A program made the position numbers and the translations under genes. The notes below the pieces were generated by a model. It was not told where the DNA came from and made no database searches. It saw only the letters and a program-made list of their open reading frames with translations. 64,000 bases of DNA from positions 29,083,118 to 29,147,117 of the forward strand of contig NC_090280.1 in NCBI RefSeq assembly GCF_037392515.1, written 5' to 3'. Each line of letters starts with the position of its first letter. Positions within the stretch are counted from its first letter, which is position 1. Below, one piece after another: positions 33,148 through 43,300 of the stretch. Source of the DNA: Haliotis asinina. Its lineage: Eukaryota; Mollusca; Gastropoda; Lepetellida; Haliotidae.

Positions 33148-36100
33148 ATGTTGTCGCTGCTTCTGTGCTCCTTATTGCTGTGTGGTGCGGCCTTGTCTGA
33201 CACAACCGTCACCATCTACAACGAGTGGCTCTCCCAAGGTGGACGTGTCAGTTATGAAGTTGAACGATGGAACAACGTTAATGGACTCACCCAATACTAC
33301 CTTGTTCCAAATATGAAAGCTATCGGAGCTGTTCCTGGGCGTTGGGTAAACAGAGACCTGAGGAAAGACCTTTTTGCAAGTGTACGTATGACGTAATGCC
33401 ATTTTCAATGAAAGATGTTTGGACTTCTTGTGATATGATTTTATACATGCCACTTGTATGCCTACTGACTCAGAATATTGTCTTTCCTCATTATTGACAT
33501 TCCTGTCTTAAATTTTCAAAGTCACCGTGAGACAGTTGGAATGTATGAGCTGATGTTTATATATTTTCATGGTGCAGGTTTTGCTCATAATTCATATGCG
33601 CCTATACCAGTTTAATGTTCATATATACATACAATAGCCGATGATTCTCTTGTAAATGCCAGCAATAATGTTTTGTGAAAACCACGTCTGAATGAGTCTG
33701 GCCGCCATGACTCTCAGCTCAGATGTCGCAGTGCAGATGATTCCTTGGAAAGGAGTTAAGGGCAGTATCTCAATAAGTATGTAACGGTGTAGCTACATTT
33801 GCATTGAAAGTGGCGGCCGTTGATACCAGTGATTAGAGCGCTCGGCAAATTGTGTTTCGACCGTAGTATTGCACCGTGCTTGCACCCACCTTTAGGTTAT
33901 GTCAGTTTGTAGCCCACTTTTCATGGTATCGTTACATTATTGTTAGTGTTAAGTGCGTTTTCGATACACTGCGAGTTTAGCGTTTTCTCTGTCCGTTACT
34001 ACGGAAGTGAGTGAGTGAGTTAATATTTAACGTCACATCGGCAATATCTCAGCCATATCGTGACGAGAACGTTAAATACTGAAATGAAATATATGGATAC
34101 TATAAAAACCTGTCAACGACGGACAGTAAAACAACTAGAATATCACAACTGGGATTAAAACTAGTGTGGAATGTTAAAACTAATATCACTATTCGGACAA
34201 TACAACATAAAATCAGGCTACAGATTGCCAACAACTGAAGGTAGATCACCATACTAGGGGCCATGGGGACTTACGGTACCTTTGCTGCCTGCATGGACCC
34301 TAGTTGGATTTACAACATCCCTTCAGCTGTCAGCAATTTAGTCACATCTAGCCAAAAATTAAAAATACACATATACTACGATTAAGAACAGTGGAAAGTT
34401 TAAATTTACTGTAAATGCTTTTGGACTTACGTACCCTCTCAGGAGGACAATAATTTTACAATACTTCAACCCCCTTCGAGGGTACAGCCACCAACAATTC
34501 AAGTTACTAATCCAAACTTCCAATAATTAAAATACATCTATTTACACAACATAACATTCAAAATTCCACCAAAAAATCAATCTCTTTTAAAAAACCAATA
34601 ATTAAATATGAATTAACGCTAGTAAAAAGATCCTTCATTGTTTTAACTGTAAAATACTTATCCCTTGTGATGGAGAATTCAACACAGTCAAGCAGGATAT
34701 GCTTCACCGTGGTTCTCTCATCACAAGGGATACAAAACGGAGGATCCTCACCTTTTAAAAGGTGCACATGAGTATATCTAGTATGGCCAATACGACATCG
34801 TCTTAAAATAACTTCTTCAAATCTGGACTGACAACCCAAGTAAGTGTAACCAATATACGGTTTTATTTCATGTAATTTATTGATACCTACTTGGGTGTCC
34901 CACTTCTTCTGCATCAGATCACGGATGTAAGTTCTAATGCTAGCTTTATAATCAGAGTATGGAATAAGAAGTGGTGTCACAGATTTGTTGAGTGCTGCCT
35001 TGGCAGCAAGATCGGCCATTGCGTTACCGGAAATACCTACGTGGCTGGGTAACCAACAAAAGACGATGTCGTATTGGCCAGTGGCAAGAGTATTATACAA
35101 TTCAATAATTTCTATTAAAAGTGGATGTTTACAAGATATATTTTTAATAGCCTGAAGGCAAGAAAGAGAGTCTGAATAGATTATATATTGTTTACGTTTA
35201 GGGTGTCTTTGAATATATTTAAGAGCTGTTAGTATGGCGTTAGCTTCTGCTGTAAAAATAGAACTGTTATCTGGTAATCGAGAAGATATTGTTCTGGATC
35301 CAATGACAGTGGCACAAGCCACAGCGCCACCGTCCTTGGACCCATCTGTAAATAACGATTTATAATTGCTATATTTATGTTTCAGTTGATTATATTCTTG
35401 TTTATACTGTAATTCATTCGTTTCTGATTTTTTAAGTGATGTTAATGTTAGGTCAACTTGTGGCCTAACCAACTGCCAAGGAGGAGAAGAAAGAAGACGG
35501 GAAGGAGCTATATGGTCCAGCTCAATGCTAGAAGCAGCAAGAAATGGCTTAATTCTGACCCCAAGAGGCGGAAGAAGGGAAGACTTTTTGTTATACAAAT
35601 CTTCATAGGGAGGATTAAAAACACAATTAAATGCGGGGTTAGACTCATTAGAAGCTAATTTTGTAATGTATTGTAAAGATAGTTTGATACGACGTAAGTT
35701 GAGAGAAGGCTCATCAGCTTCGACATATATACTGTCGATAGGAGAGGTTCTAAAAGAACCAAGACAAAGTCTTAGGCCTTGGTGGTGCACAGGATCAAGT
35801 AGTTTTAGGTTGCTTTGACAAGCGCCACCATAGACGATGGAGCCGTAATCAAGTTTAGATCGGATCAGTGATCTATATAAGTGGAGAAGGGTAGATTGAT
35901 CCCCTCCCCATTTTGAATTTGAAACTACCTTTAATAAATCGAGTGCCTTCAGGCATTTGGCTTTAAGGGATTTAATATGCGGCAAAAAGGTCAAATGTGA
36001 GTCGAAAATAAGTCCCAAGAACTTGGCCTCCTTGACGACTTTGATTGGGGTACCACTGAGAAATAGTTCTGGTTCTTTATGGGGTTTGTATTTACGACAG

Positions 36101-39100
36101 AAGTGTATACAATTAGTTTTTGATTTAGAAAATTTAAAGCCGTTTTCAAGACACCATTTATCAATTTTGTTTAAACACAGCTGCAGTTGCCGTTCAATAG
36201 TATACATGTTCTTACCGCGGCAAGAAATATTAAAATCATCCACAAATAAATATCCATCTATTAAATCGCTTAAAACTTTAGATAAACTGTTGATCTTGAC
36301 GCTAAAAAGAGTGACAGACAAAATACTGCCTTGTGGAACACCCTGATCCTGATTATAATGATCAGACAGGGTAGAACCCACACGGACTTGAAATTGCCTG
36401 TTATTTAAAAATTTAGCAATGAATTCAGGCAAACGACCTCGCAAACCGAAATCATGTAAATCTCTCAGTATGCCATATTTCCAGGTTGTGTCATATGCCT
36501 TCTCAAGATCAAAAAAGATAGACACAGCATGTTGTTTATTAATCAGTGCGTTTTTCACAAATGATTCTAAACGCACTAAGTGATCGACAGTACTTCTGTT
36601 TTTCCGGAAACCACATTGTATATCTGTGATAAGATTATTAGTTTCCAAGTACCAAACAAGTCGATTATTTATCATGCGTTCCATGGTCTTGCAAACACAG
36701 CTAGTTAATGAAATCGGACGATAATTGGATGGATCAGTATGATCACGTCCAGGTTTAGGTATTGGTACTACTATGGCATCACGCCATGAAGAAGGAAATT
36801 TCCCGGATGTCCAAATATCATCAAATATTGATAAGAGCGTCTCTAAACAGGATTCTGGTAAGTGCTTCAGGAGTTGATAATGTATGTTATCAGCTCCAGT
36901 AGCAGTATCATGAGCTTGATCAAGAGCAGTATGGAGTTCATGAATAGAAAATGTTTCATTATAATCTTCCCCATTATCAGAATTGAAATTAATAGTTTTC
37001 ATTTCTTGTTGTTTTTGATATTGCTGAAATTTAGGTATATAATTAGAAGAGGAAGAATGTTTAGCAAGAGTTTCGCCCAGTTTATTCGCAATATCTGATT
37101 TATCAGTAAGTAATTGATCTCCATGTTTAAGATGATGGACAGTAGATTTAGTACCTTTACCTTTTATTTTCTGGACCATGTTCCACACCTTGGACATGGG
37201 TGTCCGAGAATTTATTTTGGATACATAATGTTGCCAAGATTGGCGTTTGTTCTGTTTAAAAGTACGCCGCGCTTTAGCATTTAAAATCTTAAATTTATTG
37301 AAATTATGCACCATAGGATGGCGACGGAAATAATGTTCTGCTTTTTTCCTTGCCTTCCTAGCTTGTTTGCAGTCAACGTTGAACCATGGTTTTCTTATGT
37401 GTGGAACTACAGAGGAGTTTGGTATACACTCATCAGCTATGGAATTCAGTTCACCAGAAAAGCATTTAATAGCATCAGGAACGTCAATAAAACGTTCAGG
37501 TTTAAGTTTTTCAGCACACAGTGTTTCATACAAAGCCCAGTTAGCCTTTTTAAAATTTCGTCGTGATGATGGAGGAACATCGGATGGAGCTACGGTTTTT
37601 AATAGAGTAGGAAAATGGTCACTTCCACAGAGGTCATCGTGGACTGACCATTCAAATTCATTTAATAGTTCTGAATTTGTCAATGACAAGTCAAGAGCAG
37701 AATAGGTCCCTGTCCCAGGGTGTAAATATGTGTTGGAACCATCATTATAAATACATAAATCATTGTCAGAACAAAAGTCCTCCAACAATTTACCTTTAGT
37801 GTTTGTAGTTACACTACCCCAAAGTGGGTTGTGTCCATTTAAATCTCCCATTATAATACAAGGCTTCGGGAGTTGGTCATATAGAGCTTGAAGATCAGTT
37901 TTGGTAAACACCGAAGACGGTGAAATATAGAGAGAGCATAGTGTAAACGCTACATGTAAAGTAATTCTCACAGCAACAGCCTGCATATTAGTATTAAGTG
38001 GAACAGGGCTTTGAATAACGTTTTGTCTGACTAGAATGGATGATCCGCCAGTGGCCCTATCACCTGGAGGTGAAAAAGAATGATATGCATTAAAATGACG
38101 AAGGTCAAATATATCTGTTTGTTTTAAATATGTCTCTTGGAGACATATCGCTGAAGGTGTGAAATCTTGGACTAATAGCTGTAATTCATGTACATTAGTC
38201 CTTAATCCTCTGCAGTTCCACTGTACAATATTATTGGGATAAACTATCTTTTGGGGGGATTTATTGGGGATCTACCCCGCACTCTTTTGGAGGGCGACAA
38301 GCTATGTGCCCTAGAATGGACGTTTTCAGAAACGTCCATGTCTTCAAGAGACCCATACTTATTAAACAATTGAACTTTATTTTGTGACCCTTTAGGAGGT
38401 CTGCCACTTTGTTGTTTTGAAGCATCAGGCTTTGGCTTCGGTTTACTTTTCACCGTTTGTGGAGTATCAGCTGTTGATTGAGACTTTGAATGTGACTGAG
38501 ATGATGATGATTTGTGATCAGAAGACGACTTTGAGGTACTAGGAAGTGATTCCTCAGTCTGTGATGATATAGCAGGGTACAAAGGCTGTGGAGAATCACA
38601 GTTTACCCAAGTCAAGGTAGTTTGGCAGCCTGTGGTTGATGTTGTTTTAGAGCTAGAACCCGATGATGTTTTTGCTTTTGTAGCATAACTTTCTGGAAGA
38701 TCAGATCTCTTTACCAGTTTTTTGGCCTCAGAAAAAGAGATATTGTGTGTGAATTTTATTTTATTGATCTCCATTTGTTCTTTCCAAATTGGACACTGTT
38801 TAGAAAATGAAGAATGGTCGCCTGAGCAATTGGTGCATTTTTTATAATCACTGTCACAATCTTCTGTTGTGTGTGTCTTCTCACCACAGTGAGCACACAC
38901 AACAGACAATGTGCAAGTATTCACACCGTGTCCATATTTCTGACATTTAAAACATCTTAACGGGTTGGGGATGTAGGTATCAACTGGAATATTACAGTAG
39001 CCTGCCCTCACTGATTTGGGAGCATTAGGACATGAAAAGGTAAACAGATACGTGTTCGTTTTGATGGTTTCGTTGTTTCTGCGAGTTGAAAAGCGCTTGA

Positions 39101-42100
39101 CGTAGAGTACACCTTGATCCTTCATTTCCGATCCTATATCAAGTTCCGACATATCATCAAACAATCGGTCGCGATCTCTAACGATACCTTTGCTGGAGTT
39201 TAAGGTTTTGTGTGCAGAGACCGTGACCGGAATGCCCACGAATGATTTGATGTTAAGCAAATTAGTTGCTTGTTGCTTTTTCCCGCACTCTACTAGTAGG
39301 CCACCTGAACGTAAGCGTCTTATATTCTTCACGTCCCCTGCAATACCCTGAATACCCTTGGATACAGCAAAGGGGTTCAACTTCAACGGTGTCTTGTCTG
39401 GAGTCTCAATCACGATGAAACGCGGCCAATACTCAATCGATGCAGACGGTCTATGGTCACTATCAACAGGGTCAATATCAAGTGGACGTTTTGGTTTTTT
39501 TGTTGGATTTTCATAAGCCATGGTTAGTTTATTTTGGTTCATCATCCGAGCTCCCCACCCACCACGGAGTATCACAAGGACAATGCTAAAAACAAGCGGG
39601 CCTCCAGCTTGCAGCACCAAGGATACCCGGATGATATACTCCAGCAGAAGAATTAAAAGATTAATAAATCCACCAGATTGGCCCATGAGCCACCGCCTTC
39701 TGGCATAGGACTCTAGGCAAATTACAGAACAACATATTTCAAAATCAAAAATGTTCTAGATAAAAAAAACCAAGTCCAAAGTTACAACAATTCCAAATGA
39801 CATGTGTGCATTGATAAATATAAAAAGTACTTCATGCACAGGGCTTGGCATGACCAGCCGATTGGTCGAACCGGGCCCATTCGACCACCCGTCTAGGCGA
39901 AGTCAGGGCCAAAGTGGTGTATTGAGCAACAGGAACACGGTTACAGGTCCCTATTGCCCTCAACCACCAGGATCCCCTCCTCCGCCGACACAGGGACGCA
40001 ACCCACGGCAAACGGGTTGGTGGACCAAATATCCCCCCGGGTCCACTACGGGGGTGTCGGCGAGCTCTTAGCATTACCCAGCACCCACCACGAGGAGGTG
40101 GCTCGCCACGGGTGCCACTACGGAAGTAGTGAAAAATAACTACTTTATAATTAAATATCTCTTTTGGACGTAGGAGTTGGTAATATCGTATCATGAAGTT
40201 AGATAGGTTACTTTCAGATCTTTCTGTACATATATGATGAAAGGTGTTATCCTTATTGCGTGTAGGCATGAGGAGGCAATTATAGTATTATAGAACAGAT
40301 TTACTGACGAAGTGAATCTGGACTGGCGACTATAGGTTGTTTTCTCTGACGTCCGCTTCGGTCATATTTAAGCAAAAGGACCAAACTACTACGGGGTCAG
40401 TAAGTCATAAGCCTGTAAACAACACACACGTCAGTCAAACAGGGTACCTAGTGGAATATATATAGGACACTTGGGGAAACATACACCCTGGAAATGGAAC
40501 AGTCGTTAAATTAATGAGTACCTTCTCTAGTGTTGCTGAGTTGGGGGAAGTACGACTGCCAAGTGTCAATCAGAGCATATTGAAGTTTTATATGACTGAT
40601 CTTTAGCCTTTGAAAACTTAGAGTTGGCCTGCATAATAATTAGTGTACTGCCTAGCGCCAGTTAGAGCATATTGTAGTTTTTGATCACTGACCTTTACAT
40701 TTGAAAACGTAGAATGAGCCTGCATAATAGTTAGGCTAGCCTTATATAGTAATAGCCTGATAGTTGCCTCGTTAAACCGCATTTATTCATGACTGGTCGA
40801 ATGATGTGGAAGTTTCCATAGCCTGCCTGTGGGTTCTCAATACTTCCGGCAGAGTGTTGTTTTCACCTGTGATAGTGAGTAGCTACCTCGTTGTTGAAGG
40901 TAGGGCAGGGTGAAGTATCTCTTGTAGTTGCCTGCAGGCATGTTCATTTTGTGACTACCTGTTAACCATTTGGAAATTGTAGAACGTATCTGCATAATAT
41001 TCCTGTGCGACGAAACGATGTCACATCGCATGCAGTCTTGCGTTGGTTCTAAAACAATCTTTGAAGTTCATCGACCTTGTTGCGTGTTGCTTTCATGTTT
41101 AGGCTATCTACAGGTGTATAGGCCTGCCAGATAGATTGTTGAATGTCTAGTAGTACATTCCACTGTAACAAAGTACTTGTGAAAAATAACTTTCTTCCAC
41201 TGAAAACGTAAAATAAAGGAATCTTTTGTCAATGTGAAATCGGACATGATTATTTGTGAGCTGCATATTTTGTGCTGCTGTGGTACAGCTGATCCTAAGA
41301 GTAAATCCTATCTTAGCCACCCATGGCCCATCCTGATCGGAGTCAAGTGATGCTGTACAAACGTAACTGTTTATCTTGTGATTCTTCGTAGAGACAACCA
41401 ATCAATTTACTACCATGTTCATATATTTAAATCAGTGGACTGAAAGCCCAAGTCACCATGGTTACCCGGACCCTACCCATCTCCAGGACCATTCTCTCCA
41501 GAGAAGGACATTTCTAACATACCTACGACAATTACACAACTACGGGCCTCACACCACAAATATGGTGTGGGAAATGAAAGGTTTGACGCATCTTTTATCA
41601 TTCTATACGTTTAGAAATGGCGCTACACATATTTCAAAGTTCAAAGTTGATTTGAGAACATTCAAATTTATTTCATTGGTTGCTACTGGGAGTCCCACTT
41701 TGATCTCTGGTACCCCCAGTTATAAATGTCAGCACTACTTAATACAAGTAAACCCATTTGCGTTTCAGAACAGAACACCCGATAAACATGCTGGACTGAA
41801 AATTTCATTTGTATTATATATTGCATCCTTTCAGGTCTGGCCTGGCCCAGTTGGATAGATAAGTCCCAGCATAATGGTGGATTCCCAAATAATGTTGACT
41901 CGGCATCTGAGTTTGTGTCACTAATGGTTCAGGCTTGTAAAGACTTCACAGCTGGACGCCTTCCTTACATATTTGAAGTCATCAATGAACCAGACTGGGA
42001 TGAAAAGTATATTGATCCACAAACGAATATAGATTACCACAGGGCTGTCGCCGACAAACTCAAATCAAGATTTGGAATGAAAGTTGCTGGACCATCCTAC

Positions 42101-43300
42101 ACGAGCACAGCATTACGACTAGCAGATGAAAATAATTTCAGCTTCTGGAACAGAACTGCTAACTTTATGGACATGTCTCTTGATCACTTGGACTTTTTCT
42201 CTTTCCATTCCTACAACCATATGTTCAATACGTCTAGTAAATCATATTATGGTATCAACGAAGATCGTTTGTTTGCTTCTCTTGACATGGTGGAGAACTA
42301 TTCTCATATCAAGAAAGGAAAAGGTGTTCAATTAGTTAACACTGAATTCGGAGTAGGCTTACTTTCACTGGGTGTGGCGTACGATTTTGAAAATCAACTG
42401 ATTGACTTTGAGACACTTTATCAGGCGAACGGATTCATGTTTTCTTTCCTTAACCTGAGGGAATTTATGGACAGAGCTACAATATATCTCCTTGCAAACG
42501 AGCAATACCCTGGTCATACCTCCCTCAGGAACTCCTTATTTACAACTGATGGTCAGTACCTTGAACCGACCAAATTCTTCCTGTTCTGGAAAAACTTTAT
42601 TGACGATCAAAAGTTTCTCCGGGTTTCAAGTGAACACGATGGGAAGGAGAAAATAGTTTCACCGCTTGCCCTTGCAAACCCCCACACAGAAGAGATGGTA
42701 GTTCTTCTCCACAACTTTGGCGATGAATTTGAGAATGTAAAATTGGACTTTGCAAATAACTGGCTTAGCCCCTCCACAGGTGAACAAACATGTATTCTGT
42801 TCGAAAATGGTAAGCCTGCTGTTCATCCCAATTACCCTTTCGACATGTCTAAGCTTAATGGCACCATTGGTCTACCTGGATCGTCAACATGCTTCTACAA
42901 GTTTCAGACCAACTACACCTTTAACAGATTACACACAGATAATCAGAACACATACTATGGTAAGAATATGCTCATACCAATTAGCAACGGACGTGCGAAG
43001 ACAACCATCAGTGTACCGAGTTCTGGCTACCATGAGGCTTATCTTAGAGTGGGAATTAGTCGTGGTATGAGAGACATTACAAAACCTAAGACAGTTTTGT
43101 TCAATGGTCAGACGTTGCCTTCTAGCTACATGTTGTTTGATTCCATGAAGAATGCAAAAAAGAGGACAACAACATGGAACGTGTGGCAGTTCATGGTACC
43201 TGAATCACTGGTAAAAACATCCAACACCGTGACCATGACCTTTGATGGAGACGGTGGGAGCGTGACATCCGTTGCACTTGTTGCAGGAAAACTTCAGTAA
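33148..43300 (+). CDS. Secreted GH-A clan glycoside hydrolase, GH86 agarase/porphyranase-like, copy 4 (LINE in intron 1)
   Basis: Exons 33148-33381, 41436-41580 and 41835-43300 give 614 aa. Donors are GTACGT and GTTTGA; acceptors are AATCAG and TTTCAG. The signal peptide is MLSLLLCSLLLCGAALS. Exon 3 opens GLAWPSWIDKSQHNGG, and its frame is open upstream of the first in-frame ATG, so the exon really starts at 41835. Likely catalytic residues are Glu178 and Glu297. Intron 1 is about 8.05 kb because a full-length antisense LINE (34009-40116) has inserted; without it and its duplication the intron would be about 1.9 kb. The coding exons are intact, so the gene may still work if the intron is spliced across the LINE. 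The 3' flank shares sequence with that of copy 3, which supports a recent tandem duplication. Confidence 0.83.
33998..34008 (+). repeat. LINE target site duplication, 3' side
   Basis: ACTACGGAAGT, abutting the GAGTGAGTGAGTT tail of the antisense LINE. Confidence 0.9.
34558..38271 (-). CDS. LINE ORF2: AP endonuclease, reverse transcriptase, RNase H, C-terminal zinc motif
   Basis: The frame is open for 1237 codons from just after a TAG at 38272-38274. The first ATG is only at 37986, inside the endonuclease, so initiation must be at a non-AUG codon or by frameshift from ORF1. Endonuclease motifs: IVQWNCRGL, ICLQETYL, IIMGDLNGHNP, SALDLSLTNS and GSDHFP. RT motifs: NYRPISLTSCVCKTMERMI, FFDLEKAYDT, GVPQGSILS and YLFVDDFNIS. 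RNase H shows the D-E-D-D set in FTDGSKDGG, TAEANAI, IYSDSLS and NAMADLAAK. The end carries CIPCDERTTVKHILLDC, a zinc-binding-like motif. It should nick DNA and copy LINE RNA by target-primed synthesis. No internal break is seen. Confidence 0.9.
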   Translation of the reverse strand: MPNKSPQKIVYPNNIVQWNCRGLRTNVHELQLLVQDFTPSAICLQETYLKQTDIFDLRHFNAYHSFSPPGDRATGGSSILVRQNVIQSPVPLNTNMQAVAVRITLHVAFTLCSLYISPSSVFTKTDLQALYDQLPKPCIIMGDLNGHNPLWGSVTTNTKGKLLEDFCSDNDLCIYNDGSNTYLHPGTGTYSALDLSLTNSELLNEFEWSVHDDLCGSDHFPTLLKTVAPSDVPPSSRRNFKKANWALYETLCAEKLKPERFIDVPDAIKCFSGELNSIADECIPNSSVVPHIRKPWFNVDCKQARKARKKAEHYFRRHPMVHNFNKFKILNAKARRTFKQNKRQSWQHYVSKINSRTPMSKVWNMVQKIKGKGTKSTVHHLKHGDQLLTDKSDIANKLGETLAKHSSSSNYIPKFQQYQKQQEMKTINFNSDNGEDYNETFSIHELHTALDQAHDTATGADNIHYQLLKHLPESCLETLLSIFDDIWTSGKFPSSWRDAIVVPIPKPGRDHTDPSNYRPISLTSCVCKTMERMINNRLVWYLETNNLITDIQCGFRKNRSTVDHLVRLESFVKNALINKQHAVSIFFDLEKAYDTTWKYGILRDLHDFGLRGRLPEFIAKFLNNRQFQVRVGSTLSDHYNQDQGVPQGSILSVTLFSVKINSLSKVLSDLIDGYLFVDDFNISCRGKNMYTIERQLQLCLNKIDKWCLENGFKFSKSKTNCIHFCRKYKPHKEPELFLSGTPIKVVKEAKFLGLIFDSHLTFLPHIKSLKAKCLKALDLLKVVSNSKWGGDQSTLLHLYRSLIRSKLDYGSIVYGGACQSNLKLLDPVHHQGLRLCLGSFRTSPIDSIYVEADEPSLNLRRIKLSLQYITKLASNESNPAFNCVFNPPYEDLYNKKSSLLPPLGVRIKPFLAASSIELDHIAPSRLLSSPPWQLVRPQVDLTLTSLKKSETNELQYKQEYNQLKHKYSNYKSLFTDGSKDGGAVACATVIGSRTISSRLPDNSSIFTAEANAILTALKYIQRHPKRKQYIIYSDSLSCLQAIKNISCKHPLLIEIIELYNTLATGQYDIVFCWLPSHVGISGNAMADLAAKAALNKSVTPLLIPYSDYKASIRTYIRDLMQKKWDTQVGINKLHEIKPYIGYTYLGCQSRFEEVILRRCRIGHTRYTHVHLLKGEDPPFCIPCDERTTVKHILLDCVEFSITRDKYFTVKTMKDLFTSVNSYLIIGFLKEIDFLVEF
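38244..39521 (-). CDS. LINE ORF1, nucleic-acid-binding protein with CCHC knuckles
   Basis: I place the start at the ATG at 39521 (MAYENPTKKPKRPL), which lies in a strong ACCATGG context. The frame is open 55 codons further up, but that part encodes a hydrophobic stretch typical of translated 5' UTR. The protein is 425 aa. An RRM-like region (RFIVIETPDKTPLKLNPFAV, then RRLRSGGLLVECGKKQQA) precedes three zinc knuckles: CFKCQKYGHGVNTC, CAHCGEKTHTTEDC and CTNCSGDHSSFSKQC. The tail is rich in S, K and P and basic at the end. It should coat LINE RNA in a ribonucleoprotein particle. The stop codon overlaps the start of the ORF2 frame. Confidence 0.85.
   Translation of the reverse strand: MAYENPTKKPKRPLDIDPVDSDHRPSASIEYWPRFIVIETPDKTPLKLNPFAVSKGIQGIAGDVKNIRRLRSGGLLVECGKKQQATNLLNIKSFVGIPVTVSAHKTLNSSKGIVRDRDRLFDDMSELDIGSEMKDQGVLYVKRFSTRRNNETIKTNTYLFTFSCPNAPKSVRAGYCNIPVDTYIPNPLRCFKCQKYGHGVNTCTLSVVCAHCGEKTHTTEDCDSDYKKCTNCSGDHSSFSKQCPIWKEQMEINKIKFTHNISFSEAKKLVKRSDLPESYATKAKTSSGSSSKTTSTTGCQTTLTWVNCDSPQPLYPAISSQTEESLPSTSKSSSDHKSSSSQSHSKSQSTADTPQTVKSKPKPKPDASKQQSGRPPKGSQNKVQLFNKYGSLEDMDVSENVHSRAHSLSPSKRVRGRSPINPPKR
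40059..40116 (-). ncRNA. Candidate HDV-like self-cleaving ribozyme at the LINE 5' end
   Basis: Read on the minus strand from 40116. P1 is GGCACCC (40116-40110) paired with GGGTGCT (40086-40080), including the G-U wobble at base 1. P2 is GGCGAGC (40107-40101) paired with GCTCGCC (40065-40059). P3 is ACC paired with GGT around loop TCCTCGT. P1.1 is CC in that loop paired with GG at 40079-40078. The joining strand GCTAAGA places a candidate catalytic C at 40071. This is the nested double pseudoknot of HDV-like ribozymes, with L3 very like that of HDV itself; P4 is absent. The predicted cut lies exactly at the 5' end set by the target duplication. Such ribozymes are known at the 5' ends of R2, RTE and L1Tc elements. 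Confidence 0.78.
40117..40127 (+). repeat. LINE target site duplication, 5' side
   Basis: ACTACGGAAGT again, abutting the first base of the LINE at 40116. This fixes the 5' end of the element. Confidence 0.9.
40128..41435. other. Remainder of intron 1 of copy 4
   Basis: Non-coding. CTGATCTTTAGCCTTTGAAA and CTGACCTTTACATTTGAAAA, about 90 bp apart, sit in a diverged internal duplication at about 40565-40730. No other repeat is recognised. Confidence 0.4.

Follow-up and report, generated by a model that had tools for sequence, protein, structure and literature searches.

The window, by which we mean the whole stretch of 64,000 nucleotides that was analysed, contains a full-length LINE on its minus strand, with two open reading frames between exact copies of a short target site duplication. 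The main features are:

34009..40116, minus strand: full-length LINE of 6,108 bp, with its 3′ end in (TCAC)n
40117..40127, minus strand: target site duplication on the 5′ side, an exact repeat
33998..34008, minus strand: target site duplication on the 3′ side, an exact repeat
38244..39686, minus strand: ORF1, 480 aa from the first ATG, with CCHC motifs read by eye
34558..38271, minus strand: ORF2, an open frame of 1237 aa with matches to endonuclease, reverse transcriptase (RT) and RNase H domains

The window has exactly two copies of the 11-bp sequence ACTACGGAAGT, one at 33998-34008 and one at 40117-40127 (chance expectation 0.03), and therefore the element extends from 40116 to 34009 on the minus strand. 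G40116 is the first base of the LINE and directly follows one copy of the duplication, and the (TCAC)n tail precedes the other, at 33998-34008; the first base is thus where an earlier note on this DNA had placed it from the duplication. Both reading frames are open, as had also been claimed, with the qualification that no ATG precedes the endonuclease domain in ORF2, the first ATG being residue 96. The end of ORF1 and the start of ORF2 share 28 nt in a −1 relation (38271-38244, minus strand, worked out by hand), and the overlap region contains ATCCCCCCAAAAGATAG. Given this overlap and the missing ATG, frameshifting or re-initiation may be needed for translation of ORF2.

LINEs of the I superfamily carry an APE endonuclease, RT and RNase H in ORF2 and CCHC motifs in ORF1. 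By domain content, not by phylogeny, the present LINE belongs to this superfamily, with domain matches for the APE-type endonuclease, RT and RNase H, and with ORF1 CCHC motifs that we take to be zinc-knuckle-like; ORF1 had no match in Pfam. PDB matches of ORF2 include chains of L1 ORF2, R2 and TRAS1. The 28S rDNA target and REL-type endonuclease of R2 are both absent, the flanks being unrelated and the endonuclease APE-type. According to extracts of PMC10294476, the I superfamily has been reported from molluscs as Nimb and Ingi only, except for one unknown cephalopod clade, and curated I elements have a mean length of 6,122 bp, with which our 6,108 bp is consistent given the mollusc host.

Next to the LINE, a 461-aa open frame at 41915-43300 of the window (plus strand) matches PF18040, the C-terminal domain of beta-porphyranase A, with 36.9 bits; this is a domain of enzymes of the seaweed-polysaccharide type.

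The fold at the 5′ end of the LINE

The first 58 nt of the element can be drawn as an HDV-like double pseudoknot, of which the parts are listed below (all on the minus strand):

40059..40116, minus strand: HDV-like ribozyme fold, 58 nt, with predicted cleavage immediately 5′ of G40116
40110..40116, minus strand: P1 5′ strand GGCACCC, pairing with 40080-40086
40080..40086, minus strand: P1 3′ strand GGGTGCT, pairing with 40110-40116
40101..40107, minus strand: P2 5′ strand GGCGAGC
40059..40065, minus strand: P2 3′ strand GCTCGCC
40097..40099, minus strand: P3 5′ strand ACC
40087..40089, minus strand: P3 3′ strand GGT
40090..40096, minus strand: L3 TCCTCGT, in which CC at 40094-40095 would pair with GG at 40078-40079 as P1.1
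40066..40072, minus strand: J4/2 GCTAAGA, with a candidate catalytic C at 40071
40073..40077, minus strand: GTAAT linker at the P4 position, from direct reading and the Rfam alignment

Bases 1-58 (40116-40059) read in successive segments GGCACCC, GT, GGCGAGC, C, ACC, TCCTCGT, GGT, GGGTGCT, GG, GTAAT, GCTAAGA and GCTCGCC. P1 joins bases 1-7 to 31-37 (7 bp, with a G1-U37 pair), P2 joins 10-16 to 52-58 (7 bp), P3 joins 18-20 to 28-30 (3 bp), P1.1 joins 22-23 to 38-39 (2 bp), and the joint GCTAAGA occupies 45-51, all of which agrees with the fold described in the earlier note, including its G-U pair at base 1 and lack of P4. The nested double pseudoknot has the HDV order P1-P2-P3-P1.1, with P2 supported by covariation and P1, P3 and P1.1 by complementarity, and P1 starts at the insertion boundary. 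The catalytic-type C of J4/2 (C46) and the conserved G of L3 (G26) do not vary among the 18 rows of alignment A3 (see below), nor in alignment A1, where the pattern on the first base of the P1 3′ strand (P1′) that chose many rows partly demanded them. The 5-nt GTAAT linker is too short for a P4 hairpin; we treated P4 as non-defining for the HDV-like class because some R2 ribozymes also lack it, having too few nucleotides for it (extracts of PMC3774820).

Rfam at gathering thresholds found nothing in the window. With permissive thresholds over 401 bases, HDV-F-prausnitzii (RF02682) matched 40116-40060 with 25.1 bits (E 0.012) and HDV_ribozyme (RF00094) matched 40118-40059 with 24.8 bits (E 0.14), both of them setting P1 base 1 at 40116, and drz-agam-1 (RF01787) matched only 40101-40066 with 16 bits (E 1.3). 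The corresponding gathering scores are 44, 50 and 37 bits, and the Rfam HDV scores of the window and its relatives amount to about half to two thirds of the cut-offs. Relatives L040, L041 and L099 matched RF02682 in register with 30.7, 25.9 and 27.4 bits; in L057, the fourth source that was scanned, none of the Rfam HDV models matched, and a different stretch was hit by a microRNA model with a better E-value, so E-values of this kind are weak proof by themselves. Over the genome, drz-agam-1 gave one match among the 56 of 64,324 candidates that were scored (25 bits, E 4.57), which is the truncated relative L039. The viral and prokaryote contig collections held no match to the ribozyme patterns used.

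A loose home-made descriptor of the fold found 9 distinct starts in the window, which is not rare, as 20 shuffled windows gave 5.6 on average (range 1-10). When base 1 was fixed and local composition kept, 408 of 1,539,481 shuffles satisfied the descriptor, and 69 of 1,539,481 did so when P2 was required to be 7 bp, in a test which takes no account of how well loop and joint match known HDV-like sequences. Minimum-energy folding, which is limited to nested pairs and cannot represent a pseudoknot, gives a competing hairpin that is unexceptional (z −1.44, with 15 of 200 shuffles as good). Of the descriptor and covariance searches suggested in the earlier note as a check, the Rfam HDV models agree with the fold in register at 40116, with scores below gathering, and the descriptor is unselective over the window, so the case is carried by position, covariation and copies.

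Copies in the genome and their 5′ boundary

The first 300 nt of the LINE were searched against the 1.14 Gb assembly that contains the window, which yielded 42 matches from the best 40 of 2,628 candidates; 40 span bases 1-300 at 98-100% identity and two are short pieces. Since the best-scored 40 are expected to be full length by construction, the informative part is the sequence upstream. Thirty copies were fetched, one of which (L018) is the window. Compared in pairs, they have a mean identity of 0.988 in bases 1-60 and of 0.274 in the 20 bases before base 1, and no full-length copy among them continues upstream of base 1; a few pairs of 200-nt flanks resemble each other, in another register or in the opposite orientation. 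Of the 17 copies that were followed to their 3′ ends, 14 share both ends of the present element and have exact duplications, 10-19 bp long, that stop directly before base 1; L024 has a 10-bp duplication (by eye) with one extra base at the 5′ junction, and no duplication was found in L020 and L030. Microhomology or repeats of the tail leave the junction uncertain by a few bases in some copies. Every one of the four bases occurs at position −1 (A in 18, T in 15, G in 9 and C in 9, over 51 of 60 copies starting GGCA). The coincidence of ribozyme base 1 with the 5′ end of the LINE, which had been read from the present locus by two routes, is thus upheld by two Rfam models in register and is repeated in independent insertions, as seen from the duplications and the drop of identity.

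Truncated copies are also present (L043, L059). At the 5′ junctions of L009-L038 we noticed a target preference: 15 of these 30 copies have G at −2, and 24 have A or T at −1. Ribozyme-like sequences at L057:1483-1540 and L055:1492-1549 score 73.6 and 42.2 bits with model R1, and downstream of them there is no match to the present LINE; they are either old decayed copies or belong to another ribozyme carrier. A separate LINE family is locally clustered, 14 of the 150 RT matches listed lying within ∼400 kb of one contig (G000:C6:42280527-42676230); 10 of these 14 have a 1253-aa open frame and most share one score.

Pairing in P2 and constancy of P1

More distant relatives were reached through RT matches, of which 1.3-2.2 kb upstream was fetched, and the ribozyme was found in three of eight (L040-L047) and six of 20 (L097-L116); matches without it do not show absence, because the 5′ end may fall outside the fetched region. 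Nine relatives reach base 1 and are 74-96% identical to the 5′ 300 nt of the window where aligned. Over the window and these nine, column identity is 1.00 in P1, 0.94 in the core and 0.78 in both P2 strands, with P2 pairing kept except at one position in L097. Conservation of bases 1-58 is 0.907, and that of bases 109-158 is also 0.907, so overall conservation of the ribozyme is unexceptional; in the 350 nt after it, column identity ranges from 0.48 to 0.91 by 50-nt steps.

Four P2 types occur in subfamilies, GGCGAGC/GCTCGCC, GAAGAGC/GCTCTTC, GAACGGC/GCCGTTC and GAACAGC/GCTGTTC, each of which pairs in its common form, and single copies also have P2 mismatches. In alignment A3 (18 rows, 16 distinct, none of which came from the P1′ patterns), pairing is present in 99.3% of cells compared with 36-48% when the partners are slid, and four of the seven P2 pairs change on both sides, compared with none in the slid versions and with 0 of 500 shuffles reaching four. 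The number of further pair types in A3 is unremarkable, being reached by 115 of 500 shuffles. Alignment A1 has 32 rows, many of them chosen by the pattern that the first P1′ base is not G; here 95.1% of cells pair versus 34-51% slid, and five pairs change on both sides versus 0-2 slid, a number reached by 7 of 500 shuffles. Left out of A1 were L039, L055, L056, L059, L065, L071 and L096 as 5′ truncated or shifted, L052, L063, L067 and the copy at L070:1483, which the row filter missed, and sequences identical to kept rows; L041, also missed by the filter, was put in by hand. By pattern selection, 17 rows of A1 mismatch P1 pair 7, which A3 avoids. Relatedness is ignored by the shuffles and allowed for by the slid versions. 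P1.1 never varies in A1 or A3.

P1 is invariant in A3. Altered P1 was therefore sought by three patterns, each with a reversed control. A first P1′ base other than G gave 38 matches (control 1), of which 30 were inspected; two changed inner P1′ bases gave 2 matches, neither of them a P1 variant (control 1); and a fourth P1′ base other than T gave 30 matches (control 0), of which 27 were fetched, leaving out the places of L059, L096 and L095. At pair 4, 25 of these 27 copies remain mismatched and hence uncompensated, and the other two, L127 and L140, differ in the P1 5′ strand, where two more pairs are mismatched, and are probably 5′-truncated. One compensated pair was seen, pair 7 (A-U) of L057, whose P1 is otherwise poor, so a convincingly compensated P1 was not found by the three pattern searches. 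The altered 3′ strands GGGAGCT (12 of 27) and GGGCGCT (11 of 27) both recur with different P2 types, so that they may come from recurrent decay or from a lineage that carries a P1 mismatch. Within L117-L143, GGGAGCT faces an unchanged A at P1 base 4, except in the probably truncated L140. P1 thus rests on perfect 7-bp complementarity and position, not on covariation, and its frozen sequence may reflect a second role, e.g. in a promoter or at the cDNA end. The earlier note had looked to other full-length copies for a common start and for compensatory changes in P1 and P2, and these were borne out for the start and for P2, and not for P1.

Proposed self-cleavage, its alternatives and its precedents

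Three things are shown: the strands of the fold are complementary, the fold begins at the insertion boundary in independent copies, and P2 has evolved by compensatory changes. On these grounds we hold it highly probable that the first 58 nt are a self-cleaving HDV-like ribozyme by which the RNA of the element is released from read-through transcripts and given its 5′ end, in the manner of R2 and L1Tc/ingi, and judging from sequence the fold very probably serves to trim the LINE's own start. The LINE would be transcribed inside longer host RNAs, and the nascent RNA would fold into the double pseudoknot and cut itself immediately 5′ of G40116, leaving a released RNA that starts with the ribozyme and has a 5′-OH end. 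The released RNA would be the template and presumably also the message, and it would be copied to its very end, so that each new full-length insertion would start at the same base and carry the ribozyme along.

An internal promoter starting at G40116 could also set the 5′ end, and the double pseudoknot would then be a non-catalytic signal, e.g. for protein binding or translation start. In relatives whose P2 varies, P1 does not change and the core hardly does; together with the uncompensated changes in the P1 3′ strand, this suggests that the letters themselves, and not only their pairing, are under constraint, which speaks for this reading, as does Pr77 of L1Tc; however, a non-catalytic signal leaves unexplained the joint HDV-like agreement of geometry, register, P1.1 and the invariant catalytic-type C, and we regard this alternative as quite improbable. 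Promoter and ribozyme are not exclusive. Pr77 of L1Tc is both (extracts of PMC8256844 and PMC4035085), and the same 58 nt may have both functions here, as for Pr77 of L1Tc/ingi. This combination overlaps with the ribozyme reading, draws on the L1Tc precedent and on a P1 invariance that exceeds the needs of pairing, and deserves some credence, short of being probable. A chance fold in a GC-rich 5′ end might be suspected from the 5.6 descriptor starts per shuffled 64-kb window, but the small fraction of local shuffles that reach the fold at a fixed base 1, and strongly so the compensation of P2 in several subfamilies, speak against it, and its probability is close to nil.

With self-cleavage at the 5′ end as the preferred reading, a broader and rather doubtful proposal is that the 5′ HDV-like ribozyme is an old trait, handed down vertically in the I/ingi lineage of LINEs with RNase H, which reaches from L1Tc/ingi of trypanosomatids to LINEs of animals. 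Here P1 would be frozen while P2 drifts with compensation because the 58 nt act as ribozyme and promoter. If the clade of the present LINE is Ingi, it would tie the trypanosomatid Pr77 ribozyme to animal LINEs and would bear on inheritance versus repeated origin of LINE 5′ ribozymes. In any case, the LINE adds to the natural HDV-like ribozymes a compact one, which has 58 nt, lacks P4 and is present in many nearly identical copies. Its P2 subfamilies are a natural set of compensatory changes, and the exact 5′ ends of the copies make cleavage site and insertion boundary comparable in one genome.

HDV-like ribozymes in LINEs are known at the 5′ terminus of several groups, including I-group elements. 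Ruminski et al. are said to have described in 2011 those of R4, R6, SART, Baggins and RTE elements, which we liken to the present one by description only, as 5′-terminal HDV-like ribozymes in LINEs. That such ribozymes stand at LINE 5′ ends is established (extracts of PMC3774820, PMC4035085 and PMC7761336), and the L1Tc/ingi clade already joins one with endonuclease, RT and RNase H (extracts of PMC4035085). This combination is shared with the present LINE, whereas the L1Tc/ingi hosts are trypanosomatids and their 77-nt hallmark Pr77 is also a promoter; the likeness is drawn from descriptions. All main features of the fold have precedents. The earlier note's suggestion that a mollusc I-type LINE with such a ribozyme and no P4 may be undescribed is weakened by these L1Tc/ingi elements and by the P4-less R2 ribozymes. 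Among the papers listed in the literature searches, none announces an HDV-like ribozyme in a mollusc I-superfamily LINE in its title or the opening of its abstract.

R2, also a non-LTR element, likewise has an HDV-like double pseudoknot at its 5′ end, and CCTCCTCGTGG, which is bases 19-29 of our fold, is identical to the string called most conserved in R2 (extracts of PMC5035012). In contrast to the present LINE, which inserts at unrelated sites with its own G as base 1 and has an APE-type endonuclease and RNase H, R2 targets 28S genes and frequently cuts in the 28S sequence upstream, and R2 of species cutting at their own 5′ end have variable junctions (extracts of PMC3774820), whereas those of the present LINE are nearly uniform. 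RF02682 is a bacterial model whose P4 stretch of 15 model positions corresponds to one base in our fold and whose gathering score is not reached; it is nevertheless the best Rfam match for the window, with a similar loop and a GCUAAG joint to which GCTAAGA aligns.
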